Positions 2,006 to 34,764 of a DNA stretch of 34,879 nt are shown here, in pieces. The position numbers and the translations under genes were made by a program. The first letter of the stretch is position 1; each line of letters begins with the position of its first letter. Source of the DNA: an uncultured Clostridia bacterium (lineage in GTDB: Bacteria > Bacillota > Clostridia > TANB77 > CAG-465); contig CALWOE010000013.1 in assembly GCA_944383035.1 (NCBI GenBank), forward strand, positions 1-34,879. Reading direction: 5' to 3'. The notes under the pieces are model-generated. The model saw only the letters and a list, made by a program, of their open reading frames with translations. It was not told where the DNA came from and searched no databases.

Positions 2006-3637
2006 CTATTTATTAGCCATTTTTGTTTTTGCAACATATGCAAAACCAGCTACAGCTGCTATAGCTAAAACTGCTATTACAGCAATTGTAATATCTGATG
2101 TATTTGGGTTTTCAACATCTCCTGTATTTATACCTCCAACATTTTCATCTGTTACTTCAGTTAAAGATAAGAAATATGTAGAAGCATGATCTAATGTTAT
2201 AGTAGCCAAACCATTTTCATCTATTACTATATCACTTGCTATTAATTCTGCTTTTTTAGTTTCTTCATTGAAATAGTATAAATATACTTTATCACCTACA
2301 TTATATACATTTTTTACATCAAATGTAATCTTTGTATCTTTAGGTAATACCCCTTCATAATCTAAAACAATATATAATGCTTTAGCATTTTCATCTAATG
2401 ATATTTTATCACCTAAAACATCATTTTCTGTAACTGTTAATTTTAATTTTAAATCAGTAGTAAATTCATCTACCATATTTTTTGTATTAAAACTTATTGT
2501 AGCATTTTCTGTTTTAATAACAACTTCTTTTTCTGGACCATTTTTAAGTTCATTTAGAACATCTACACTTATAGTGTCATTTGATGTAGTTTCTACAACT
2601 ATTTTATCTTGTGATAATTGATCTTTTATTTGTGTATCCGCATTTGGCATACTATTTTCTTTTAATAAATAGAATTGTTTTTGATCATTTTTACCATTAT
2701 TTGCTATAATATTTGCTCCGAATGGATAATCAACTACAACATTATCAAGTACTGGATCTGTCCATAAAGTTGGTAACAAATATGCCTCTGTATTATTTAC
2801 TAATTTTGCATTTGCAAGATTTATAGTTGGATTTGTTCCTGATACTTCAATTCCACCAAAGCCATTTCCTGAAACATCAATTGTTCCATTTAATGTTACA
2901 TTTGCTCCATTTACGATAAGGGCAGCATTTGCTCCAGTTAATTTTATATCATTTATAACTACTGTTGCATGATATGCTTGTAATACATAAGCTTTATTTG
3001 TATCCCATACTGTATTATTGTCCATTTGCATTTTTATTTCTTTACCATTTCCATTGATTGTAACATCTCTTACTATGTTTACTTTAGAATTTACTGTAAA
3101 GTTATTAGTTACATTTATTGTTTTTACTTTTGTATCATTTAAAGCAGCAAGTAATTCTTCTTCTGTTGATACATTTTTTACACTTTCATCAACTACATTT
3201 ATTTGTAAAGAATTTTGTGCTACAACACTTTGAGTACTTGCATCTTTTAAAGAAATATTTACTGTATAATTTCCAGCTTTATTAAATGTAACTCTAAATT
3301 TTGAAGTAGCTCCATCTGTAAGTGGGAAACCAGTTCCTGGAGGCCCAAAAAGTGAATCTGCTGGCATTTCATACCAATTTCCATCCTTTACTTCATAATA
3401 TTCAAGTTTATCAATAGCACTAGGATCACTAATATTACCATCACCCAATACCATTAAGTTTTTATATGATTCTGGTACATTTGTTGTTACTGAAAATTCT
3501 TGTTGTTTTCCAACATAAAAATCTCCATTAACATTCATAGAAAGTGTTGGTACTTCAGCAGCATAAACATTCATAAAAGGCATAACCATAACAGCTACAA
3601 ATAGCATGCCTACTATGATTTTAAATGATTTTTTCAT
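2006..3637 (-). CDS. Sortase-anchored surface protein with beta-helix domain, paralogue 2
   Basis: A 543-residue tandem paralogue of the protein encoded at 132-1802, with the same architecture: signal peptide ending VYA-A near residue 27, N-terminal Ig-like domain, beta-helix-like middle, beta region, and C-terminal NPNTSD (510) with a hydrophobic segment and basic tail. The Ig-like domain (about residues 30-130) and the sorting signal are nearly identical between the two copies. The middle part diverges more, and this copy lacks most of the Asn/Thr linker. It lies closest to, and divergent from, the class B sortase gene, which suggests it is a substrate. Start supported by AAGGAGGAG 6 bases upstream. 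Function beyond surface display is unknown. Confidence 0.8.
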   Translation of the reverse strand: MKKSFKIIVGMLFVAVMVMPFMNVYAAEVPTLSMNVNGDFYVGKQQEFSVTTNVPESYKNLMVLGDGNISDPSAIDKLEYYEVKDGNWYEMPADSLFGPPGTGFPLTDGATSKFRVTFNKAGNYTVNISLKDASTQSVVAQNSLQINVVDESVKNVSTEEELLAALNDTKVKTINVTNNFTVNSKVNIVRDVTINGNGKEIKMQMDNNTVWDTNKAYVLQAYHATVVINDIKLTGANAALIVNGANVTLNGTIDVSGNGFGGIEVSGTNPTINLANAKLVNNTEAYLLPTLWTDPVLDNVVVDYPFGANIIANNGKNDQKQFYLLKENSMPNADTQIKDQLSQDKIVVETTSNDTISVDVLNELKNGPEKEVVIKTENATISFNTKNMVDEFTTDLKLKLTVTENDVLGDKISLDENAKALYIVLDYEGVLPKDTKITFDVKNVYNVGDKVYLYYFNEETKKAELIASDIVIDENGLATITLDHASTYFLSLTEVTDENVGGINTGDVENPNTSDITIAVIAVLAIAAVAGFAYVAKTKMANK

Positions 3638-9413: not shown

Positions 9414-12400
9414 CTAAGATAAATGTTGTAGATATAGTACTAAATGTGGACTCATATTCCCAGCATTATCATATCCTCTAACCCAAACACCACAATGTTT
9501 ACTTACATCTATCATTTTCCACCATGGAACTGAATGACCTTCTAAATTATATGTTCTTAATTTATCTGCAGTCATCCAAGTTTCATATGGTGGATAATTA
9601 TTTCCTGATGGTGGAGTTTCATACCATCCATCTTGATTTAACATACCACCTTTATAACATCTAAATTTATATTCATAGGCTGATGAATTAACACCAGATA
9701 AATCATCTATCATTGAAACTGTATAACTCCAATTATAACTTCCATGTACATAATATACATCTTTATTTTCAGCTATTCTTTGGTCAGTTACACTACCACC
9801 AAATAACCTATCAACAGTTCCAAGTCCACTATGACTTGTAAGATATGGTGCAAACGGTGCAGTTTTATCTATACGCCAGTAATATCCATTATCCATCCAT
9901 CCTGTCCAGTTTCCTGCTACATCTCTAAAACGTATAAATAACATTTGTCCTTCTCCACCAAAATAATCTGAAGCTCTATTTCCACTTATTGATAAGTCAT
10001 AAGCCGCATACGAAGCAAGTGCATTATTTACATCTGTTCCTTTAGTATATCTCCACTCTATATACATTTTTCCACCACTTTGTAGAATTCCTGATGCGTT
10101 ATCTGTTGCTGTAAACGATATAACTCTTCTATCTGTGTTAGTCCAATATGATCTAGAATCATTATTTGTCCATGATACACCTGAATATGTTGGCGCTACT
10201 GTGTCTTTTTTTACTGTTAATGTTTTTGCTGCTGACTTGTTCCCTGCATTATCATATGTATACACTGTTATTGTCGTTGTTCCTTCTGCTGTTACACTAA
10301 ATGTTCCTCCATTTGAGATAGTTGTTTCTCCTTTTGACATTGCTCCACTTAGTGCATATACTACTCTATTTACGCCTGATCCTCCACTATCTGTTCCTTG
10401 TGTTACTCTTATACCAATATTAGATTTATACCAACCGTTTTCTCCTGGTGTTCCACTTGTTATTGATACACCTGCTTGTGTTGGTACACTACTATCTTTT
10501 TTTACACTAAGTGTTTTTGCTGCTGACTTATTTCCTGCATTATCATATGTATATACTGTTATTGTCGTTGTTCCATTTGCTGTTATAGTAAAAGTTCCTC
10601 CACTTGTGATAGTTGTTTCTCCTTTTGTTGTTGCTCCACTTAATGAATATGTTACTCTATTTACTCCTGATAGATTATCAGTTCCAGCTGTTACTCTTAT
10701 TGTTATATTTGATTTATACCAACTATTACTTCCTAAAGTTCCACTTGATACTGTGGCACTTGCTTGATTTGGTGCTACTTTATCTATATTAGTTACCTTA
10801 TATGATTTTGTAGTACCTATCTGATTTGTATTATCAATAATTCTTGCTTCTATAGTACAATTACTATCTATTGTTAAAGTAGTTGAATAATCAGTCCAAC
10901 CAACCCTTTGTGTGCCATCTTCATTTAATATTCTATATTGTCCTTTTGTATCTGTTATCAAAGTATATTTAATTGTTGCAGTAATATTTTTATTTGTCCA
11001 AGCTGTAGAACTTGGAGTTATTGTGATATTTGTATTACCATCAGGTACTTTTAAAGTATTTATAGCTGTAGATGTTGATTCTACATAGCCATTTCCAACT
11101 TTATCTATTACTCTTGTTTTTACTTCATAAGATGTATTTTGAGTTAAATTACTAAATATATTACTTGTCTGCCAGTTACTCCATGTCCCGTTTTTCTTTA
11201 TAGCATATTGTGTTTTAGTTGTATCAAGTCCACTTTTAGCATAATCTGTTGTTGCCGATGCATCATCTTGTTTTAGTGTTACTGTTAATTTGTTAGTAGT
11301 AGCAGATACTGTCGGTGCAGTATTTGTTGGTAATAATTTATCTATATATGTAATTTCTTTTGATGTTGATGTAGCTACTGAACTATTTAATAGTATTCTT
11401 GCGTATACTGTTGCATTTTTATCTACTTCAAACATACCTACATACTCTAACCAACCACTATCAGTTCCATTTTTATATAAAACCCTATATTGTTTTGTTA
11501 TACTTGGAATATCATCATATTTTATTTCTACAAGAACGTTTTGATTTGTACTTGCTGACGGAGTAAAATTAATTACTGGTGCATTTATTTTACTTGTACT
11601 TAATGATTTAGACTCTGTTACCTCGTTTCCAACGTTATCTACTACTTTTACTTGAATTTCATACTCTGTACCAAAATCTAGTCCTGTAAATTCATAACTT
11701 GTATTTGTTGTTATCTCACTCCATGTTTTTCCTCCATCACTACTATACATATATCCTTTTATTCCACTTAATTTATCTTGTGCTTCAACACTAACAGAAA
11801 TAGTATTTGCAAGTTCTCTTGTACTTACATTTATAATCTCTGGTGCTGTTTTATCTATTTTTACTATATATTCATTTCCTTGTGTATTTTTTCCATTGTA
11901 ATAAACATTTGGTACTACTTTTATTATACCTTCATTAGAAATTAATATTTGTCCATTATATTCCTTTAATTCTCCATCATTTTCTTTATATGACAAGCTT
12001 ACTTCATCTTCTGATGGACTATCTGAATAATATATTATTTGTAGTAGTGCATTATCTTTTATCCATGTATCTGATTTTACATTATTTACACTTGTTATTC
12101 TTGGTATACCTGGTTCTTCTGCAATTTCTACACTTGACTGATTATCTGTTTTTGTAACACAAACTATTTCATTTGATTCTATAATAGTTCCATCTTGTTT
12201 TACAACTTCTACTTTTATATAATATCTTGTTCCTTCTTTTAAATCATCTGCAGAAAAATCTATGTTTAAACTTCCACCATTTACTTTTTCTTCCGTTTCA
12301 TAAGTTCCTGATATTGTTCCGATATTTACTATATATTCTTTTATATCACTTGCTGTTATTTCTCCATTTACAGTAACTTTTCCTGTCAAATCATTTATTC

Positions 12401-12833
12401 CTGTTACAACATCAGAGATTACAACTTTTACATTTTCATATTTTTTTATTCCTGTTGCCTCTGCCCATTCTTCTTCTTTTGGTTCGTTACCTTTATATAC
12501 TAATTCTCCTTCTACAACATCAAATTTATCTTCATACTCAGTTCCTTTTATACTTGGTATTACTTCTCCTATATCTATAAATCCTTCTTTATTTTCATTT
12601 GAGGCATTTAAATTATCACTATTATATTCTCCAAAATTTTCTATTCTTTGATTTTGAATATATGTTGAGAGTTCCACTTTAAATCCTTCTAAATCAGATT
12701 TAAATGCAACTTCATTTGCATTTTCTACAGGTGTTACATCTAAATATGATATAAATGTAGCTGCCATTAATATTAAAATTATAATTATTGTTATTACAAG
12801 TACTATTAAACTTATACCACTTTTTTTACTCAT
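9414..12833 (-). CDS. Large Ig/FN3-repeat surface protein with prepilin-like N terminus
   Basis: A 1139-residue protein of unknown function. The start reads KKSG-ISLIVLVITI followed by a long hydrophobic stretch to about residue 30. This resembles a type IV prepilin (class III) signal with a Gly at the cleavage point, but the usual Glu at mature position 5 is Val. The rest is extracellular beta-domain material: an FN3-like domain (about 125-230), further Ig/FN3-type domains ending in the VDNVGN/IDKVGN style, and two nearly identical domains (about 685-880) with WYKSNI and TVYTYDNAGNKSAAKTL. The C-terminal 250 residues are Trp/Tyr-rich and also end in a DNAGN strand. It is a single gene with its own terminator; the ribosome site is AGAGAGG. 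An adhesin or pilus-tip-like role is inferred. No pilus assembly genes are in the window. Confidence 0.75.
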   Translation of the reverse strand: MSKKSGISLIVLVITIIIILILMAATFISYLDVTPVENANEVAFKSDLEGFKVELSTYIQNQRIENFGEYNSDNLNASNENKEGFIDIGEVIPSIKGTEYEDKFDVVEGELVYKGNEPKEEEWAEATGIKKYENVKVVISDVVTGINDLTGKVTVNGEITASDIKEYIVNIGTISGTYETEEKVNGGSLNIDFSADDLKEGTRYYIKVEVVKQDGTIIESNEIVCVTKTDNQSSVEIAEEPGIPRITSVNNVKSDTWIKDNALLQIIYYSDSPSEDEVSLSYKENDGELKEYNGQILISNEGIIKVVPNVYYNGKNTQGNEYIVKIDKTAPEIINVSTRELANTISVSVEAQDKLSGIKGYMYSSDGGKTWSEITTNTSYEFTGLDFGTEYEIQVKVVDNVGNEVTESKSLSTSKINAPVINFTPSASTNQNVLVEIKYDDIPSITKQYRVLYKNGTDSGWLEYVGMFEVDKNATVYARILLNSSVATSTSKEITYIDKLLPTNTAPTVSATTNKLTVTLKQDDASATTDYAKSGLDTTKTQYAIKKNGTWSNWQTSNIFSNLTQNTSYEVKTRVIDKVGNGYVESTSTAINTLKVPDGNTNITITPSSTAWTNKNITATIKYTLITDTKGQYRILNEDGTQRVGWTDYSTTLTIDSNCTIEARIIDNTNQIGTTKSYKVTNIDKVAPNQASATVSSGTLGSNSWYKSNITIRVTAGTDNLSGVNRVTYSLSGATTKGETTITSGGTFTITANGTTTITVYTYDNAGNKSAAKTLSVKKDSSVPTQAGVSITSGTPGENGWYKSNIGIRVTQGTDSGGSGVNRVVYALSGAMSKGETTISNGGTFSVTAEGTTTITVYTYDNAGNKSAAKTLTVKKDTVAPTYSGVSWTNNDSRSYWTNTDRRVISFTATDNASGILQSGGKMYIEWRYTKGTDVNNALASYAAYDLSISGNRASDYFGGEGQMLFIRFRDVAGNWTGWMDNGYYWRIDKTAPFAPYLTSHSGLGTVDRLFGGSVTDQRIAENKDVYYVHGSYNWSYTVSMIDDLSGVNSSAYEYKFRCYKGGMLNQDGWYETPPSGNNYPPYETWMTADKLRTYNLEGHSVPWWKMIDVSKHCGVWVRGYDNAGNMSPHLVLYLQHLS
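10198..10779 (-). repeat. Two tandem copies of a 291-bp coding repeat
   Basis: Inside the large Ig-repeat gene the segment encoding the YDNAGNKSAAKTL domain occurs twice, offset by 291 bases (97 codons): for example TTGCTGCTGAC starts at 10226 and again at 10517. Long stretches are identical at the DNA level, which suggests recent duplication or conversion. Copy-number change by recombination is plausible. Outer boundaries are approximate. Confidence 0.8.
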
Positions 12834-14519: not shown

Positions 14520-16877
14520 TTAACTTCTTACTTTATGTACTTTTGTAACAATAATTGTAAAATCATCATTTAAATTATTTTTATTCTCTCTTAATACTAA
14601 TTTATGCATCTCATCTGAAATCATTCTTGTATTCTTAGTAATATCTAGAGATGTCAAATATTCTGTTATATAATTTTTATTTATATTCATATTTTCATTT
14701 ATAACACCATCTGTAAGTTGTATAACAATACTATTATCTTTTAATTTCTTTACTATTGGTACATAATCTGTATTATTTAAAAGTCCTACTGGTAAATTTA
14801 AATTATTTATTACTGTTACTTTTCCATCTTCTAAAATATAAGTTGGTGCACTTCCAATTTTTATAAATTCAGCTTGAGCATTTTTTTCATTTATAAGCAA
14901 TATATCAAGTGTTGAAAAATTAGTATCATCACCTTTTAACTTTAATGTTGAATTTATTATATCTATTGCTTTTTTATCATCAAATCCACCAGCAAGTAGT
15001 TTTTCTAACATATTTATTACAGTAGTTGAAGATTTTGATGCACTATCACCAGATCCAGCTCCATCACTTAAAGCACACATATATTTTAAATCTTGAAGCT
15101 CCATTGTAATATATGAATCTCCAGATACATTTTCTCCACTTTTAATATCATTTGTTACGCTTGTTGCAATATCATACTCTGGTTTTGAAACAATTTTAAT
15201 CTTAGATTTTTCTTTTTTACTACTATTTAATATTAATTTTATACACATATTTTGTTCCAATATATTTGAGGCGAGTTCTATAATTTGTCTTTTTTGTTTT
15301 TCAATATTTGTTAAAATATCTGTAACAAATGTATATTCTATATTTTCTCCATCTTTTATATATTCATCTTCATAAACTAAAAATCCATAAAATTTTAATT
15401 CTTTTCTTAATTTTTCTTGTGATTTATCAACAACTGTAGGTGTATTTTTTAGATTCTTAGCCACATTTGATAAAATTTGTGATACTTGTTTATATTGCTT
15501 TGATAGTTTAATACTATTTTCCTTTTCTTTTTGTTTTAATATTCTAGATAATTTCATACTATCATATATTTCTTTTAAATCTGTTACAATCTTTTCTGAA
15601 TATTCACAATTCTCATCAAACATTGACTTATCTATAACTTCGTTATGCTCTAATTTTGATGCTAAATAATCCACTGTCATGTCTAATCTTTTATTCTCAA
15701 CGCATTCTTTTCTTCTTGCACAATCTATACATGTATTATCAACATATTCTTTAATATACCTTTTCATTACATTTCTTGTTTCTTTTGCATCTTCTTTTGT
15801 GTAATCAACAACTATATTAGATAATGAACTAAATACTTCAGATACTGCTCCAATTTTTGATTTCAAATCAGTAGCTGTATCCAAAAAATTATTATATGGA
15901 TTTATTAAAGTATTACCTTTATTAAATAAATTTTCAAGTTTTAATTCTAAAGATTTTGGTACAAGTAAAAGTGATATTGATGCTATAACAACTTCACTAA
16001 CTCTCATAGTAAGTTCTGAAAATCCACTTGAATAATATGATATATACAAATATCCAAGTACAAATCCTATAACTACAGCCACTTTACCAAATTTTTCTAA
16101 AATTCCTGCTATTGCACCACTAAAAGCCAAAGTAACCACATAAGTCATATTTACATCTGCAATACCAGTAAGTAAAAGCCCTATTACAAGACCTGCTGCA
16201 CTTCCTATTAAAGCTCCATTTTTCCACCCATATATAAGTACAATGCAAAGTACAATTATATTGTATACAGAAAAACCGAATACTGTTATATTTTTAAATA
16301 TTGATAAAGCAATTGTTACAACTGTAATCATTGCAATACTTTCTTCTTTTGAATATACAAAACCTTTATTTAAGTTAATTAATACATATATTCCTTCTAC
16401 AAATATAAAATAAAGTATTGAAGTTACAAGTAAATTTCCAACTGTTGAAAAAAGTTCAATAAATAAATTTCCAGCAATAAAACTTGCTCCTAGTTCAACA
16501 ATTGTAATTGCTGATATAAACTTTATAAATACACTATATTTTCTACCAATCCCTTCAATATTTATTAAAGCTGTAATTAAAGTAAATAATATAAAAAATA
16601 TTACTACTTTTAAAATCATTATTGATGTAACTGATGTTACAAGCATTGATAAAACACTTGATATTAATACTAAAAGTAAAGGTACTTTAAAAACACTTGC
16701 AACAGCAAACATTACAAAACTAAAAGGCAAATAATTTACCATAAAGGTTTGTCCAGAAAGTAAAAAGCTAAGTAGTATAAATAAAATATTTTTTATGTTT
16801 ATTTTATCTTTAATAAACTTAGTTACTTCAAAAACTTTGGTTTGCATATTGTTTACCATAGATCTATCATATACCAT
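14520..16877 (-). CDS. spoIIE: Stage II sporulation protein E, PP2C-type phosphatase
   Basis: Membrane serine phosphatase of the sporulation septum; in the known family it dephosphorylates SpoIIAA and so releases sigma-F in the forespore. The 785 residues (from the ATG at 16877) have about ten N-terminal membrane segments (roughly 20-310), a cytoplasmic regulatory region with the Cys cluster CIDCARRKEC (about 385), and a C-terminal PP2C domain. Metal-binding aspartates are visible in GDSY (Asp587) and SDGAGSG (Asp605); the last motif has Ala where the family usually shows Met. A GTG four codons upstream is in frame but overlaps the ribosome site (AGAGGTG), so the ATG is preferred. Spo0A-like boxes lie upstream. 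Its presence is strong evidence that the organism forms endospores. Confidence 0.95.
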   Translation of the reverse strand: MVYDRSMVNNMQTKVFEVTKFIKDKINIKNILFILLSFLLSGQTFMVNYLPFSFVMFAVASVFKVPLLLVLISSVLSMLVTSVTSIMILKVVIFFILFTLITALINIEGIGRKYSVFIKFISAITIVELGASFIAGNLFIELFSTVGNLLVTSILYFIFVEGIYVLINLNKGFVYSKEESIAMITVVTIALSIFKNITVFGFSVYNIIVLCIVLIYGWKNGALIGSAAGLVIGLLLTGIADVNMTYVVTLAFSGAIAGILEKFGKVAVVIGFVLGYLYISYYSSGFSELTMRVSEVVIASISLLLVPKSLELKLENLFNKGNTLINPYNNFLDTATDLKSKIGAVSEVFSSLSNIVVDYTKEDAKETRNVMKRYIKEYVDNTCIDCARRKECVENKRLDMTVDYLASKLEHNEVIDKSMFDENCEYSEKIVTDLKEIYDSMKLSRILKQKEKENSIKLSKQYKQVSQILSNVAKNLKNTPTVVDKSQEKLRKELKFYGFLVYEDEYIKDGENIEYTFVTDILTNIEKQKRQIIELASNILEQNMCIKLILNSSKKEKSKIKIVSKPEYDIATSVTNDIKSGENVSGDSYITMELQDLKYMCALSDGAGSGDSASKSSTTVINMLEKLLAGGFDDKKAIDIINSTLKLKGDDTNFSTLDILLINEKNAQAEFIKIGSAPTYILEDGKVTVINNLNLPVGLLNNTDYVPIVKKLKDNSIVIQLTDGVINENMNINKNYITEYLTSLDITKNTRMISDEMHKLVLRENKNNLNDDFTIIVTKVHKVRS

Positions 16878-16908
16878 AAATTTTCCCACCTCTTTTGTTT
16901 CTTTTTAT

Positions 16909-16965
16909 ACTATATATTTTACATCATTTATATCTATTTTTTTGTCGTATTTTAATGTAGACAAA
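16909..16965 (-). promoter_or_regulatory. Candidate Spo0A-controlled promoter of spoIIE
   Basis: TTTGTCGTA (plus strand, 16941-16949) differs by one base from the Spo0A box TTTGTCGAA. A second weaker match, TTTGTCTAC, lies on the minus strand at 16965-16957. A -10-like TATAGT (minus strand, 16909-16914) is placed so that the first box is at about -40, and there is no good -35 box. In Bacillus subtilis spoIIE is Spo0A-activated from a promoter of this layout. The sites are short and in AT-rich DNA, so this is a candidate only. Confidence 0.45.
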
Positions 16966-16980
16966 AATTTTATTATACTA

Positions 16981-17018
16981 AATATACATCAAAATAGAAA
17001 ACTATCTTGATGTATATT
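16981..17018. terminator. Hairpin downstream of the H1-tailed protein gene
   Basis: A 12-bp stem (16981-16992 with 17007-17018), one A-C mismatch, then ATAG/CTAT and a tetra-A loop, directly after the stop codon at 17022. The T-run on the plus strand is good (seven T), that on the minus strand weak, although the only upstream gene is on the minus strand. Confidence 0.6.
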
Positions 17019-17021
17019 TTT

Positions 17022-18296
17022 TTACTCTTCACTTTCTTTTACTTTTGATTTTGTAGCTCTTTTTCTAGTAGTAGTTGTTGTTTTTTTCTTTGTAGTAGTC
17101 TTTTTTGTTGTTGTCTTTTTCTTAGTAACTTTTGCTACTGTTTTTTTAGCTTTTTCTACTACTTTTTTTATAGTTGGTTTATCATCCTCAACATTATCTA
17201 CATCTTCTTTATCTTCATTTTCTTCTAAATCAATTTTTACATCTTCTAGTATAACTTCTTCTACCTTTGGTTTTTCATCTATTTCTTCTTGTATAATTTC
17301 TTTTACTTTTTCATTTTTTGTGCTCTCAAGTGCTCTTTTTAATACAAACTTTCTTGTTGCTTCTTCATCATCTGCTGCAGCAAGTTTTGAATATTCCAAA
17401 TATTCATCTTCTGTTTGTATTGTTCTATGAACATCATTTACCATTGTCTTTATCTTTAAATCATATATTTCACTAAACATTTTGTAATAATCATTTATTG
17501 ATATTACCTCATTTTCTAAACTTTGATCATATATTTCTTGAATCTTTTCAAATATTTTATCTATAATTTTAAAATATCTATATGCATTTTTACATATATT
17601 TATCATTAAATTATACTCATACATATGCTTGTCTATATCTGATTCAATTCCTTTAATCATAGTTTCTATTACATATTCAATTAATTCTCTTTCATCAGTA
17701 GGCAATTTTGAAATATCATAATTATCATTTATATAACCTACATACTCATCTATACATTCAAAAAGTTCTTTATACTTTTCTTCAGTATATTCATCTGTTT
17801 GAATCAGTGTATCTACTTCTTCAGATAATTTTATTACTTTATTATATCTTTTTGATTTTCCTTCATCCTTTATATTTTGTTTTACTGCATCTATTGCTGA
17901 AGATATTGCAAGAAGACCAAATTTTATATCTTCTCTTGATTTAAATTTCGCTTTTGTTACTCTATCATATTCCATTTCTAAAAATGTTTTTTGCAATTCT
18001 AATCTATCCATTTTTTCAGTAGAATTAATTTTATCTAAAATATCTTGTGAATAAGATAATTTTAATTCATACATTTCACGTTGCATAATATCATATTGAT
18101 ATTTTACAAATACTATTTCTCTTAAAATATTTTCTTCACGTAATCTTTTATCTTCACCTTCTGTTTTTTTAATAACATTTAAATGTTCATCTATTGCTCT
18201 ATTCATTTTTGTCATATTTACTAATATAACAACACTTTGTATCACTCTATCAAATATATTTATTTTCTTTTTAGAACTTACAACTATATCTGCCAT
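17022..18296 (-). CDS. Unrecognised coiled-coil protein with histone-H1-like Lys/Thr tail
   Basis: I do not recognise this 424-residue family. There is no signal peptide or membrane segment, so it is probably cytoplasmic. Residues about 10-310 are charged and predicted largely helical, with coiled-coil-like stretches. Residues about 320-375 are strongly acidic (Glu/Asp-rich). Residues about 376-424 are a low-complexity basic tail of Lys, Thr and Ala (KKTTTKKTTTKKK), like the tails of bacterial histone-H1-like proteins, which suggests nucleic-acid binding. It has its own sigma-A-type promoter and ribosome site GGGGAGAT, and lies upstream of spoIIE on the same strand, but with a hairpin and a separate spoIIE promoter between them. 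The acidic part followed by a basic tail could also be self-masking. Function unknown. Confidence 0.8.
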   Translation of the reverse strand: MADIVVSSKKKINIFDRVIQSVVILVNMTKMNRAIDEHLNVIKKTEGEDKRLREENILREIVFVKYQYDIMQREMYELKLSYSQDILDKINSTEKMDRLELQKTFLEMEYDRVTKAKFKSREDIKFGLLAISSAIDAVKQNIKDEGKSKRYNKVIKLSEEVDTLIQTDEYTEEKYKELFECIDEYVGYINDNYDISKLPTDERELIEYVIETMIKGIESDIDKHMYEYNLMINICKNAYRYFKIIDKIFEKIQEIYDQSLENEVISINDYYKMFSEIYDLKIKTMVNDVHRTIQTEDEYLEYSKLAAADDEEATRKFVLKRALESTKNEKVKEIIQEEIDEKPKVEEVILEDVKIDLEENEDKEDVDNVEDDKPTIKKVVEKAKKTVAKVTKKKTTTKKTTTKKKTTTTTRKRATKSKVKESEE

Positions 18297-18375
18297 TTAC
18301 TATCTCCCCTTAACAAAAAATATGCAAAATAACAACAATTTTATCAATATTATTTTTACACATAATTTTACTTAT

Positions 18376-18403
18376 ATTATATCGTGTTTTTCAATAATTT
18401 CAA
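18376..18403 (-). promoter_or_regulatory. Sigma-A-type promoter of the H1-tailed protein gene
   Basis: Minus strand TTGAAA (18398-18403), 16-base spacer, TATAAT (18376-18381), about 80 bases before the start codon. It lies in the 392-base gap 18297-18688, which holds this promoter, the divergent one at 18561-18589, and otherwise only AT-rich DNA. Confidence 0.6.
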
Positions 18404-18688: not shown

Positions 18689-19267
18689 ATGACAAGTAAT
18701 TACTTAACATTTAATAACATTAGAGTTTTTTCAACGGATACTCTGTCAGAATTCAAAATTTTTCTGGATAAAATTTTAAAGAGTTCTGACAAAAAAGTAG
18801 TCGCAACGACAAAGGAAAATTTAAAAATTCTTAGCGAATACTCTAATAGTTCATTAGAAGAAGAAAATACATATTCTGTATATTATACTTCTACTATGAA
18901 TTATTGCAGAGCTTTAGTTGAAAAATTAGTAAATTATTTAAATGGTTTGAAAAAAACTGAACTAAAAATTTCAACTAATAAAGAAGATTTTTTACATTTT
19001 GCCAAAAACGACTATAAAAACGACTATAAAAACGAAAAATACTATCCTTATAGTACTTCTTCAAAAAAGGTATTATTAAAAGATAGTATAATTTGCCAAT
19101 ATTATGAATTCAGTACTAGTTATAAAGAAAAATATAACAGTGAAATTCATAAGTTAGCAAAAGATTATTTCATTATTAATAGCAAGTATGAAGATGGAGA
19201 ATATCTCATCTATTATACAGCTGATGTAAAAGAAGGAAAAATGATTAAAGAAAGCTTAGGATATTAA
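18689..19267 (+). CDS. Unrecognised 192-residue cytoplasmic protein
   Basis: I do not recognise this protein. It has no signal peptide, membrane segment or metal motif. It is Lys/Ser/Tyr/Asn-rich. The first third reads like an alpha/beta fold (FNNIRVFSTD, KKVVATTKENLKIL). Near residue 108 there is a short in-frame repeat (NDYKNDYKNEK), a possible hinge. The C-terminal part is Tyr-rich and ends in a predicted beta hairpin (YLIYYTADVKEGK). Expression signals are unusually good: extended -10 promoter, leader hairpin, AGGAGGAG ribosome site 8 bases before ATG, and a strong terminator overlapping the stop. It is therefore a real, single-gene unit, probably well expressed. It is convergent with addB; nothing around it suggests a role. 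Confidence 0.8.
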   Translation: MTSNYLTFNNIRVFSTDTLSEFKIFLDKILKSSDKKVVATTKENLKILSEYSNSSLEEENTYSVYYTSTMNYCRALVEKLVNYLNGLKKTELKISTNKEDFLHFAKNDYKNDYKNEKYYPYSTSSKKVLLKDSIICQYYEFSTSYKEKYNSEIHKLAKDYFIINSKYEDGEYLIYYTADVKEGKMIKESLGY

Positions 19268-23698: not shown

Positions 23699-26032
23699 AT
23701 GCTATGTTCTGTATGTAAAAAAAATATGGCTGTTATATTTATAAATAAATTAGACAAAGAAGGAAAATCAACAGGAGAAACTACTGGTTTATGCATTGAA
23801 TGTGCAAAAAAACAAGGTATAGATCCTATTAAAAATATAATTAATGGTATGAATAATATATCTGATGAACAAATGGAAAATATGGCAAAACAATTTGATA
23901 CTATGTTACAAGATATGTCAAATGAAACAGATAATGTACCAAACGATAATACTGGAAGTAAAGAAGATTTTGAAAAAGCTAAAAAAGGCTTTCCAGGTCT
24001 TTTTGGTAATTTAATGAGTATGAATTTCAATGGCGAAGATGATGATTCAGATTATGATGATGATAAAAAAGACAAAAAGAAAAAAAAGAAGAAAAAGAAA
24101 AAATATTTAGATACTTTTGGCGAAAATTTAACACAAAAAGCAAGAGAAAATAAATTAGATAAAGTAATTGGTAGAGAAACTGAACTTGCTCGTATGATTC
24201 AAATATTAAATAGAAGAAGTAAAAATAATCCCGCACTAATTGGAGAACCAGGTGTTGGTAAAACAGCAATTGTAAATGCTCTTGCTATTGCAATTGCAAA
24301 AGGCGAAGTACCAAACAAATTACTTGATAAAGAAGTTTATCTTGTTGATATGACATCCCTTGTTGCTGGTACACAATTTAGAGGCCAATTTGAATCAAGA
24401 ATCAAAGGTATAATTGATGAATGTAAATCATTTGGTAATATAATACTTGCAATAGATGAAGTACACAACATTGTTGGTGGACTTGAACATGACAATTCAA
24501 TGAATGCAGCAAATATGTTAAAACCTGCACTTGCTAATGGTACTGTACAATTAATTGGTGCTACAACTATAAAAGAATATAGAAAATATATAGAAAAAGA
24601 TAGTGCTCTAGAAAGACGTTTTCAACCAATAATTGTTGATGAACCTACTCCAGAAGCATGTTTTGATATTTTAAAAGGTACAAAAGAATATTATGAAGAT
24701 TTCCACAAAGTAAAAATCCCTGATGAAATATTAATGGATGCTGTAAATTTATCTAGTAAATATATACATGATAGATTTTTACCAGATAAAGCAATCGATT
24801 TATTAGATGAAGCATGTGCTAGAGTAAATCTTGAAGATATAAATCTTGCTAAAATTGCCAAATTAAGAAGAAAACTAGAAAAAATAACTGAAGAAAAAGA
24901 AGAATTAGATGAATTACTTCAAAATGCAGATGAAAATAGTGATAACATAGAAAACTTTGAAAAATCTGCTAAATTAAAAGAAGACGAATGTAAACTTCAA
25001 AATAAACTTGATGAACTAATAAAAAAAACAAAACCAAAAATTGTTACTTTTGATAATCTAGCTCAAGTAGTTGAACTTTGGACTAAAATACCTGTTATGC
25101 GTATAAAAACTAAAGAAACTGAGAAATTATTGAATTTAAAAGATAACTTAAGTAAAAAAATAATTGGTCAAGATCAAGCAATTGAAGCTATATCAAATGC
25201 AATATTAAGAAAAAGATCTAATATTTACAACATTATACGTCCTCCATCATTTATATTTGTTGGACCTACTGGTGTTGGTAAAACTGCTTTAGTTAAAGCT
25301 TTAGCTTATGAACTATTTGATAATGAGGATTCTGTTATAAAACTTGATATGTCAGAATATATGGAAGCACATAGTGTTTCAAAATTAATTGGTTCTCCTC
25401 CAGGATATGTAGGATATGATGAAGCTGGTCAATTAACTGAAAAAGTTAGACGTAACCCTTATAGTATTGTACTTTTTGATGAAATAGAAAAAGCTCATCA
25501 AAGTATATATAATATATTACTACAAATTCTTGATGAAGGAAAACTTACTGATTCACAAGGAAAAAGTGTATCATTTAAGCATACTATAATTATACTTACA
25601 TCAAATCTTGGTACTAACTTTAAAAGTGATGGATATGGATTTTCTAATAAAGAAATTGATGAAAGTTTACTTGAAAACAAAACAGCAGATGCTTTAAAAG
25701 AGTATTTTTCACCAGAATTTTTAAATAGAATAGATGATATAATTACATTTAAAAAATTATCTTTTGATACTATAAATAAAATTTCTAGACTTATGTTAGA
25801 TGAATTAAAAGAAGAAACAAAACAAAAACATATTTTATTTGATTATTCAGATGAAGTAGCAAAATTTATTGCAAATGTTGGTTACAATTCTAAATTTGGT
25901 GCTAGACCACTAAAAAGAGCTATCCAAAAATATATTGAAGATCTGCTTGCAATAAACTTTATAAAAGGCAACATAAAAGAAAATACATTATATCACTTAG
26001 ATGTAAAAGATAATAAAATAATTATAAAATGA
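23699..26032 (+). CDS. ClpE-like AAA+ unfoldase with N-terminal zinc finger
   Basis: ATP-driven protein unfoldase (Hsp100 class), expected to feed ClpP. The 777 residues begin with a zinc finger (Cys3, Cys6, Cys32, Cys35) instead of the double Clp N domain; this is the ClpE arrangement. Residues about 110-138 are a low-complexity acidic-then-polylysine linker. The first AAA domain has Walker A GEPGVGKTA (about 182) and Walker B LAIDEVHN (about 250). A coiled middle segment (about 385-445) follows. The second AAA domain has Walker A GPTGVGKT (about 522) and Walker B LFDEIEKAH (about 591), then the C-terminal small domain. A GYGFS segment near 645 sits where the ClpP-binding loop is expected. 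ClpC is the alternative, but it would carry Clp_N repeats. Confidence 0.9.
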   Translation: MLCSVCKKNMAVIFINKLDKEGKSTGETTGLCIECAKKQGIDPIKNIINGMNNISDEQMENMAKQFDTMLQDMSNETDNVPNDNTGSKEDFEKAKKGFPGLFGNLMSMNFNGEDDDSDYDDDKKDKKKKKKKKKKYLDTFGENLTQKARENKLDKVIGRETELARMIQILNRRSKNNPALIGEPGVGKTAIVNALAIAIAKGEVPNKLLDKEVYLVDMTSLVAGTQFRGQFESRIKGIIDECKSFGNIILAIDEVHNIVGGLEHDNSMNAANMLKPALANGTVQLIGATTIKEYRKYIEKDSALERRFQPIIVDEPTPEACFDILKGTKEYYEDFHKVKIPDEILMDAVNLSSKYIHDRFLPDKAIDLLDEACARVNLEDINLAKIAKLRRKLEKITEEKEELDELLQNADENSDNIENFEKSAKLKEDECKLQNKLDELIKKTKPKIVTFDNLAQVVELWTKIPVMRIKTKETEKLLNLKDNLSKKIIGQDQAIEAISNAILRKRSNIYNIIRPPSFIFVGPTGVGKTALVKALAYELFDNEDSVIKLDMSEYMEAHSVSKLIGSPPGYVGYDEAGQLTEKVRRNPYSIVLFDEIEKAHQSIYNILLQILDEGKLTDSQGKSVSFKHTIIILTSNLGTNFKSDGYGFSNKEIDESLLENKTADALKEYFSPEFLNRIDDIITFKKLSFDTINKISRLMLDELKEETKQKHILFDYSDEVAKFIANVGYNSKFGARPLKRAIQKYIEDLLAINFIKGNIKENTLYHLDVKDNKIIIK

Positions 26033-26054: not shown

Positions 26055-26085
26055 AAAAAATATCCCATAATTTGGGATATTTTTT
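26055..26085. terminator. Bidirectional terminator between clp and the BofC-like gene
   Basis: A 13-bp perfect stem, AAAAAATATCCCA (26055-26067) with its complement (26073-26085), loop TAATT. T-tracts are present on both strands, and the two flanking genes converge on it. Confidence 0.85.
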
Positions 26086-26693
26086 TAACTATCTAAATCT
26101 TCTAATATAAAATTAAGTTCTTCTTTTGAATCAACTTTTATACCAACACTTAATTCATCAACCATTTCCTGTCTTAATAATTCTATTGATACCTCTATTT
26201 CCTTATATTTAGTTTTTACAATATCATTAACAAGATTATATACAATAACTTTACTATCTTCTAATTTTATTAAAAAATGATTTGGACAATATTTATCTAA
26301 TGTTCGTGTATATACTAATGTATCACTTGTTTGAGATTTTAACTCATATGATTTTTCATTTTCTTTCATATTTTTTTCTTCTTTTTCTTTTAATTTTTCA
26401 ATTGTTGTATCTTCTACTACCTTTTCTTCTTTTACAGTTTCACCACATAGATTATACACATCCTCATATATCACTGTTATATTTTTAGTTTCATTAAATG
26501 CTGGTACATCATCATAAATATCAACTTGACTTCTTTTATCATTATCATTTTCTTCATTATGATGTATCACATTTTCTTCATCATTATATATTCCACTCCC
26601 AGGAGAAATTTTAAGTCCCAATATCATTCCACCAATAAGCATAAAAAATAATGTTACACCTAAAAGCATTATAATTTTAGTATTTGAATTCAT
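26085..26693 (-). CDS. BofC-like membrane-anchored protein
   Basis: A 202-residue protein from the ATG at 26693 (AGGTG ribosome site; an in-frame GTG three codons upstream overlaps that site). Residues 5-27 are a membrane anchor or uncleaved signal, so the rest is probably outside the cytoplasm. Residues about 30-105 are charged linker with acidic and Lys/Glu-rich stretches. The end, from about 120 (TLVYTRTLDKYCPNHFLIK), resembles the C-terminal domain of BofC, a sporulation protein that in Bacillus controls the SpoIVB protease in sigma-K checkpoint signalling. The similarity is limited to a short CPNH-type motif and its flanks, so the BofC role is inference. It follows comEC by about 50 bases and probably shares its transcript. 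Confidence 0.6.
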   Translation of the reverse strand: MNSNTKIIMLLGVTLFFMLIGGMILGLKISPGSGIYNDEENVIHHNEENDNDKRSQVDIYDDVPAFNETKNITVIYEDVYNLCGETVKEEKVVEDTTIEKLKEKEEKNMKENEKSYELKSQTSDTLVYTRTLDKYCPNHFLIKLEDSKVIVYNLVNDIVKTKYKEIEVSIELLRQEMVDELSVGIKVDSKEELNFILEDLDS

Positions 26694-26744
26694 TTTTATC
26701 ACCTATTCATATTTTTTACAGATTTTTCTAATTTATACAAAAAT

Positions 26745-28916
26745 CTATTTAAAAACTATCATACCCAGATTTTCAGTTATTAATATATTAATGTTATAAT
26801 TACTTAGTATTTCTAAAACTTCTTTTGTTGGATGACCATATACTTCTTTTTTTGATGAAATAACAGCATTTTTTATATTAAAACATTCTAATAATTCTTT
26901 TGAAGTTGATGTATTAGAACCATGATGACCAACTTGTAACACGTCTATTTTTTTATTCTTTATTATTAGATTATCTAATAAGTACCTTTCGGATTTTACT
27001 GTAGCGTCTCCCATAAAAAGATAAGTACTATTTTTCATATTGTTTATTTTTACATAAATTATTAAACTATTTGAATTTGAAGAATCTTTATTATCTATAT
27101 CAATATTTTTATCTGGAGATAATATTTGTACATTTATATTATTAAATGTAAAAGTATCACCTTTTGTCACTTCTACAAAGGAAATATTATTATTTCTTGT
27201 TAAATTATATATTGTATCAAAAAGTTCATTTTTTTCTTTTGGCTCTTGATATACTATTTTTTCAGTATTAACATTTTCAACTAATTGTAATATTCCATTT
27301 ACGTGATCATTATCAAAATGAGTTAAAAATACAATATCTAGATTACTTATATTCTTTACCTTAAAAAAATTTTGTAAAGTGTTACTTGCTAAATTATTTT
27401 TTGTTGACCGCATATCTATTACTATATTTACATTTAAATTATGTATTAAAGCCATATTTCCCTGCCCTACATTAAAAAATACTACATACTTTTCAAAATA
27501 CATAATTTTTATATATAAAAAGATATTTAAAATCACAAAAAATACAAAAGTAATATTTACAATATTTTTAATTTTTTTTCTTATTTTTTTATTATAACAA
27601 AAAAGAATTAAATATTTAGAATTATAAAAGTAAAGTAAAAATAAATAATAAAAAATTAAAATTATAATACCAGGTTTTGGAAAAGAAACGTAAGATAAAT
27701 TAAGATTATATACAAAATCTACAACAAAAAATATTAATTTTAAAAATATTAGATTTATTTTAAGTAAAATATCAGAAATAATTGGAATAAAAATAAAAAG
27801 TAAAGTAATATATGAATAAGATACATAAAGTTCTATAACTGGGACTAAAATAATTGATGATATAACCATTGTTATATATATTTTTGTACCATAATAAATA
27901 TTTATAGGAATAAGTAAAATATTAACACTTAAAAGTGTTGATAAATTTTTTATTATAAAATTTAGTATAAAATTTTTCTTAAATTTTAATAACTTTACGC
28001 TAAAATATGAATTTATTAAATTATCAAACATAATAATTCCAACTATACAAAAAAATGCATAAATTAAAGAAACATTAAAAACCATATATGGATTTAATAA
28101 AAAAAGTATCAAATATGTATACAAAACTCTTAAATATTTATTTTTTAGAGTTATATCAAATAAATCTAGAATATTTAATAATATATATGTAATTCCAGCT
28201 CTTACAATTGTTATTTTAAACTCACAAAAAATTATAAATAAACTAACAAATAAAATATTAATTAGTGCTGTAGTTTTTCTTTTTTTGGTTATATTAACTA
28301 TACATTTAATAATTTTAATATAAATATATATGTTAAATCCTGAGATTGACAAAATATGTAACATACCACACTTTTCAAATTTATCTTTTATCTTATCATC
28401 AAGTAAATTATCATCTCCATAAATTAAACTTTTAAAAGTATTTTTCATATCATCATCAAAAAATTTTGACACTTTATATTCAATATTTTGTTTTAAATTA
28501 AAAATAAAATTTACTTTATTATCAATAACTTTATTTACTCTTGTTACAGAAATACTACCTACTATATTGTTAGAATTTAAATATAATTTGTAACTTGTTT
28601 CACCAAGATTTCTATATTTTTCTATTTTTGTTATTTTACCTAGTACACTTATTTTATTTCCTGGTAAATAAACTGTATCATCATTATAAATATATATAAT
28701 AAATTTATCATTTTTAATTTTTGCAACATATGAAATATAATCTTCATCATACTTTTGTATTTTAATTATTTCTAATATATAATTTGCGGTAATATCTATT
28801 TTATCTTTATATTTAAATTCAAATTTATACACAAAATATGTTATATCTATAATTACAATTAATAAAGCAATATAAATTAGCACTTTATTTAACTTAACAT
28901 TTTTTATACACTTCAT
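26745..28916 (-). CDS. comEC: ComEC/Rec2-type DNA uptake channel protein
   Basis: Polytopic protein that in competent bacteria forms the inner-membrane channel for single-stranded DNA. The 723 residues have an N-terminal membrane pair and OB-like region (about 1-130), the competence membrane core starting at LIYGDDNLLDD and HILSISGFNIYIYIK (about 165-200) with many membrane segments to about 470, and a C-terminal metallo-beta-lactamase-like domain. That domain keeps THFDNDH (His533, Asp535, Asp537, His538) and VGHHGS (about 660). The usual DVGQGD motif reads NVGQGN (482-487). No clear ribosome site precedes the ATG. No comEA or other competence gene is adjacent. Whether it works in transformation is unknown. 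Confidence 0.92.
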   Translation of the reverse strand: MKCIKNVKLNKVLIYIALLIVIIDITYFVYKFEFKYKDKIDITANYILEIIKIQKYDEDYISYVAKIKNDKFIIYIYNDDTVYLPGNKISVLGKITKIEKYRNLGETSYKLYLNSNNIVGSISVTRVNKVIDNKVNFIFNLKQNIEYKVSKFFDDDMKNTFKSLIYGDDNLLDDKIKDKFEKCGMLHILSISGFNIYIYIKIIKCIVNITKKRKTTALINILFVSLFIIFCEFKITIVRAGITYILLNILDLFDITLKNKYLRVLYTYLILFLLNPYMVFNVSLIYAFFCIVGIIMFDNLINSYFSVKLLKFKKNFILNFIIKNLSTLLSVNILLIPINIYYGTKIYITMVISSIILVPVIELYVSYSYITLLFIFIPIISDILLKINLIFLKLIFFVVDFVYNLNLSYVSFPKPGIIILIFYYLFLLYFYNSKYLILFCYNKKIRKKIKNIVNITFVFFVILNIFLYIKIMYFEKYVVFFNVGQGNMALIHNLNVNIVIDMRSTKNNLASNTLQNFFKVKNISNLDIVFLTHFDNDHVNGILQLVENVNTEKIVYQEPKEKNELFDTIYNLTRNNNISFVEVTKGDTFTFNNINVQILSPDKNIDIDNKDSSNSNSLIIYVKINNMKNSTYLFMGDATVKSERYLLDNLIIKNKKIDVLQVGHHGSNTSTSKELLECFNIKNAVISSKKEVYGHPTKEVLEILSNYNINILITENLGMIVFK

Positions 28917-33516: not shown

Positions 33517-34764
<1,248 letters not shown>

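Follow-up and report, generated by a model that had tools for sequence, protein, structure and literature searches.

A conserved helical protein with a replaceable charged tail, usually encoded beside spoIIE, in one family of uncultured Clostridia

Directly upstream of spoIIE in the genome of an uncultured Clostridia bacterium is a gene whose product ends in an acidic segment and a lysine-rich tail, and the question raised by this locus is what such a protein might do and whether its neighbor has anything to do with it. The window analyzed here, a stretch of 34,879 nucleotides, carries the gene as an ORF at 17022-18296 on the minus strand, which encodes 424 amino acids from an ATG start, with spoIIE next downstream at 14520..16889 on the same strand (Pfam SpoIIE_N, E=1.6e-52; SpoIIE, E=1.3e-21). 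A first-pass annotation had described the product, here called X, as a coiled-coil protein with a DNA-binding tail resembling that of histone H1, and had raised a role in chromosome handling; the coordinates it gave for the ORF were exact, and its naming of the neighbor was borne out by the Pfam SpoIIE match. A chance ORF is excluded, because X has orthologues in 35 genomes and the dN/dS of its core is 0.01-0.06 between close relatives. Divergent from X lies an ORF for 192 amino acids (18689-19267, plus strand) to which no family was assigned; relatives have a different gene, or none, at this position.

The core of X, residues 1-303 (17388..18296, minus strand), is predicted to be all-helical, is strongly conserved and has no known family. 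Single-sequence and profile searches of Pfam, NCBIfam, PHROGs and PDB sequences gave nothing significant for it, and the best matches, to EXD1 (E=0.052) and MinE (E=0.12), were at chance level. The annotation had recognized no domain, and the Pfam, NCBIfam and PDB searches agreed; it had also named a clear match to a known family with unrelated function as one outcome that would speak against it, and the profile search of the N-terminal region found none. None of the libraries searched has a name for the family that the core represents; the layout of the protein is one already known from CarD. Conservation of the core was measured against that of neighboring genes. Across the family of the window's organism, core identity is 66-83% in a DNA scan, or 62-80% for residues 1-341, and between the window and relatives in its genus it is ~75-80%, compared with ~72% for a ClpC-type ATPase, ~70% for ScpB, ~50-58% for SpoIIE and ~45% for an AddB-like protein. 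X thus ranks with or above the ATPase and ScpB, and above SpoIIE and the AddB-like protein, as expected of an important core gene.

The structure prediction of the N-terminal region that had been proposed with the annotation gave an all-helical model of modest confidence, without a significant fold match. The AlphaFold2 model of the core reached a pLDDT of 65 and a pTM of 0.46, that of full-length X 60 and 0.32, and the two agreed on 14 helices, followed by disorder past about residue 341. Residues 304-341 (17274..17387, minus strand; alignment A3) form two more predicted helices, with lower conservation, and from residue 301 the pLDDT of the core model is 77-90 per block. The annotated 300-residue helical domain is helical by the model and extends somewhat further, to about residue 340. 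The term coiled coil was only partly apt: in the models, which are of modest confidence and gave no significant fold match, the helices lie in an irregular array rather than in one long coiled coil. Foldseek gave no match at E<=0.001 in the PDB or among viral models, all of its PDB matches having E>=0.23. In a fold search with the same modest-confidence model, 14-3-3 proteins appeared at Z 5-6 and the best match at Z ~8, which is the background for helical models; the recurring 14-3-3 and designed helical-repeat matches lie within that background, and a likeness to a 14-3-3 segment noticed by eye (KTEG..KK) is too short to count.

How widely X occurs was determined with profiles of the core. 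The first (A2) matched 35 of the 36 genomes of the window's family, in one copy each and in all five genera, and none of the 251 genomes of the order outside that family (287 genomes of the order in all). A wider profile (A4) found the same 35 in the order, plus one chance match with three stops. A sample of the class gave five genomes of the family and a 65-residue chance match with a stop, and in a sample of the phylum the one match among 398 genomes was the window's own. A query with the single protein had reached 23 of 38 nearby genomes, all in one genus. The two profile matches outside the family (G423, E=7e-4; G040, E=0.019) were short and had in-frame stops, and were taken as chance. 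Other families of the order were checked for a hidden homologue in the region before spoIIE: the regions from 10 genomes, several of them extending only a short way upstream, gave no match to the core profile. An origin in a mobile element was likewise set aside, as no relatives were seen in viral contigs, phages or plasmids. By profile search, then, X is family-specific, confined among the genomes sampled to one family of uncultured Clostridia. That so constrained a single-copy core gene is confined to a single family of gut Clostridia with small genomes suggests that this lineage has added something of its own to basic cell biology.

Past the core, the protein continues with an acidic stretch (residues ~342-371; 17184..17273, minus strand) that is predicted to be disordered (pLDDT ~30), and then with a Lys/Thr/Ala-rich tail (residues ~372-424; 17025..17183, minus strand), at the place where relatives have AT-hooks. 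Both segments had been correctly picked out by the annotation: K, T, R and A make up 37 of the 45 residues at 377-421, where no other ORF of at least 100 amino acids in the window exceeds 24, and the net charge per 30 residues runs from +14 at its most basic to -12, its minimum, in the acidic stretch. The tail consists of Lys/Thr runs, with no KPAA in the sequence or in a tandem repeat scan, and its mixed codons (AAA/AAG, ACA/ACT) and low tandem-repeat scores rule out a simple trinucleotide run.

Comparison among the 35 sequences placed this tail in a series. Nearly all have an acidic disordered stretch after the core. Behind it, a motif search located one or two AT-hooks (e.g., KRRVGRPRK) in 23 of the 35, which by motif have GRP hooks following an acidic segment. 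The X of the window species has no AT-hook; its tail belongs with the five that are Lys-rich and hookless (with L072, L078, L083 and L079), and a Lys/Thr-rich composition is found in it and one other species. Two sequences (L076, L080) have few basic residues in the tail, and five have no basic tail at all (L056, L081, L106, L107, L108), the last four of these forming a clade of genera g12 and g14. As the nearest relatives of the window's X (L054, L055, L058) carry hooks, a Lys/Thr tail has probably taken the place of hooks in its lineage. On the tree of the core, tail type requires 7 changes, compared with a mean of 11.4 and a minimum of 9 when labels were shuffled: tail type is inherited but replaceable. 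With the Pfam AT_hook model (PF02178), which has only 13 positions, matches sat on the motifs but fell below the gathering cut-off (best 15.2 bits, L055, versus 17.4), and the tail of the window's X had none; the hooks are thus identified by motif and conservation rather than by model score. A series of AT-hook, Lys/Thr, Lys-rich and absent tails on one conserved core is a natural experiment on tail function, and on whether an H1-like tail and an HMGA-like one can replace each other.

With AT-hooks at the same place in most relatives, the Lys/Thr tail most likely stands in for a minor-groove-binding tail, and to this extent comparison favors the annotation's proposal of a DNA-binding tail. However, with 5 of 35 sequences lacking it, a basic tail cannot be an essential part, and together with the two that have few basic residues these argue that DNA contact is not general in the family; DNA binding by the tail is plausible but would be accessory. 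The acidic stretch, for its part, is present also where there is no basic tail, so masking the tail, as had been suggested, cannot be its only role. The same tail-less and weakly basic members are what one would expect if the core's job were unrelated to DNA (e.g., in the envelope, cell shape, the ribosome or a metabolic assembly) and the charged tail were a loosely constrained appendage for solubility or for binding RNA or polyphosphate. This possibility, to which we give a minority share of credence, would also accommodate the rate of tail evolution, as dN/dS is higher in the tail than in the core in every close pair: tail values are mostly 0.14-0.54 (0.07 in one pair), exceeding those of the core from severalfold to tens of times, and between the window and its nearest relatives they are 0.65-0.86, versus ~0.13 for the core. 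It would fit, too, with the lack of any known DNA-binding fold in the core. It has more difficulty with the hooks themselves, a specific minor-groove motif with a conserved GRP core that most of the genus has retained, and with their distribution: a strict codon pattern for AT-hooks occurs twice in the G007 genome, both times in X, although it occurs once, elsewhere, in G000 and not at all in G038.

Few bacterial proteins are known in which a folded domain is followed by an acidic segment and then by AT-hooks; the described case that our literature search for bacterial AT-hook nucleoid proteins returned was CarD of Myxococcus xanthus, the other results being general papers. CarD has a folded N-terminal domain, an acidic segment and a disordered C-terminal region with RGRP AT-hooks; its hook module binds DNA and raises activity, yet is dispensable (PMC4374960). 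Like X, it has tail-less kin (CdnL). The window's X departs from it in lacking an AT-hook, and the core of X is unrelated to it by every sequence search done. The shared layout, and a CarD tail that is likewise dispensable for part of the activity, raise the idea that X is a gene regulator of the same kind, its core contacting RNA polymerase or a sigma factor and its tail AT-rich promoter DNA. We regard this as very improbable, since there was no match to CarD_CdnL_TRCF in the window's X (E<=1), in 14 cores (E<=0.1) or in 35 members (NCBIfam), and the N-terminal domain of CarD has beta strands (PMC4374960), whereas X is predicted to be all-helical.

Other systems resemble parts of X. In Pseudomonas, AlgP and PhaF join a helical N-terminal domain to a long, disordered, Lys-rich H1-like tail that has been linked to DNA binding and is used to place cell contents along the nucleoid, the AlgP tail being needed for granule positioning (PMC9239181). 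That such a tail can work in granule spacing also counts in favor of the reading in which the core's job is unrelated to DNA. Their KPAA repeats are not found in X, whose core is much larger and has no detectable homology to theirs, and an acidic linker, a feature of X, is not described for AlgP in the portion of that source drawn on (PMC9239181). HMGA2 similarly combines AT-hooks and an acidic segment in a disordered chain, and dimerization is promoted by its acidic part, which binds the hooks (PMC4482583); by this analogy, the acidic stretch of X could modulate its tail. HMGA2 lacks a folded domain, and in it the acidic segment lies on the C-terminal side of the hooks, whereas in X it comes before them. 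The lysine-rich, low-complexity composition of the window's tail is reminiscent of chlamydial Hc2, a protein of 165-237 amino acids whose length varies with the number of lysine-rich pentamers (PMC2848022), but X has a conserved helical core of 340 amino acids. The best reading of these analogies is that X may work like CarD, AlgP or PhaF while belonging to none of their families.

The position of X beside spoIIE suggested a further possibility, that X acts in sporulation and, together with SpoIIE, handles the forespore chromosome, taking over the function of RacA or a similar protein. The synteny check proposed in the annotation found the two genes adjacent in 31 of the 35 sequences, and the window organism's genome has Spo0A, so the organism may sporulate. 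The window also encodes a collagen-like protein with GPT/GAT repeats and a BclA C-terminal domain (33517-34740, minus strand); BclA-type collagen-like proteins are typical of spore-surface filaments, and its presence fits a spore-forming host. In addition, one genome of high completeness (G006) has neither X nor spoIIE, although it has kept Spo0A; as X and spoIIE are neighbors in its genus, a single assembly gap would explain the double absence. Against a link to sporulation stands the promoter of X (18375..18402, minus strand), TTGAAA and TATAAT separated by 16 bp, the -10 box ending 79 nt before the ATG. Promoters of the form TTGNNN/TATAAT are of the housekeeping sigma-A type and not sporulation-sigma-like, and the pattern TTGNNN-(15-19)-TATAAT was present within 260 bp of X in 34 of 35 orthologues (shuffled mean 2.9), nearly always with the 16-bp spacer. 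The annotation's assertion that X has its own promoter is thereby upheld. Between X and spoIIE, directly after the X stop codon, is a terminator-like hairpin (16980..17019, minus strand; -20.3 kcal/mol, z = -7.2), and hairpins are found 3' of the stop in nearly all relatives, that of L079 being weak. Promoter and hairpin together indicate that X is probably transcribed alone, with spoIIE probably a separate transcription unit; TACGACA, seen by eye upstream of spoIIE (~16889-16960, minus strand), is one base off a Spo0A box, and would fit separate sporulation control of spoIIE.

Adjacency has moreover been lost in two genera that keep both genes. In g12, X lies beside a dnaE-type polymerase gene in L108 (in its congener L107 the gene beside X is cut by the edge of the region compared), and in g14 beside pflB and a sodC gene, with spoIIE elsewhere in these genomes. 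Two genomes in which Spo0A_C was not detected (G010, G023) still have X, and searches of the core against Pfam and NCBIfam found no RacA-type DNA-binding domain, nor a match of any kind. Nothing in its genomic context marks X as a sporulation gene: it has no sporulation-type promoter and its linkage to spoIIE is not obligate, and we consider a forespore role improbable. The link that the neighborhood had suggested, to spoIIE and to sporulation, is weak.

The reading we prefer, and to which we assign about an even chance, is that X is a vegetative helical scaffold or adaptor held on the AT-rich nucleoid by its basic tail. X would be expressed constitutively during vegetative growth; the essential work would fall to its core (residues ~1-340), which would self-associate or bind one or more conserved partners, and the disordered acidic linker would connect the core to the tail. 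The tail would anchor X to AT-rich DNA, through AT-hooks in most species and through a Lys/Thr-rich, histone-H1-like sequence in the window species, and so may raise its concentration locally on the nucleoid or tether the core's partner there. Such a tail would be accessory, altered or lost several times. A stronger version, which we offer tentatively and hold less likely, is that X is a new bacterial chromosome-organizing scaffold, i.e., a near-essential, family-specific helical assembly with a swappable grip on DNA (AT-hook, Lys/Thr H1-like, Lys-rich or absent). That X might stand in for a lost HU was considered and rejected, as HU was found in 34 of the 36 family genomes.

Several other genes of the window deserve mention. 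The ClpC-type double AAA ATPase (23699-26032, plus strand) has at least 10 lysines in a row (KKDKKKKKKKKKKYLD) in the stretch that separates the N-terminal part from the first AAA domain. Next to a ComEC-like competence gene (26745-28916) is one for a 205-aa protein with a weak match, below the cut-off, to the BofC C-terminal domain (26085-26702, minus strand). A protein of 1139 amino acids (9414-12833, minus strand) combines a hydrophobic, pilin-like segment at its N terminus with Ig/fibronectin-type repeats, and is possibly a pilin-type surface protein. Finally, two adjacent and related proteins with a pectate-lyase-like adhesive domain (132-1802 and 2006-3637, both minus strand) are probably the products of a tandem duplication.
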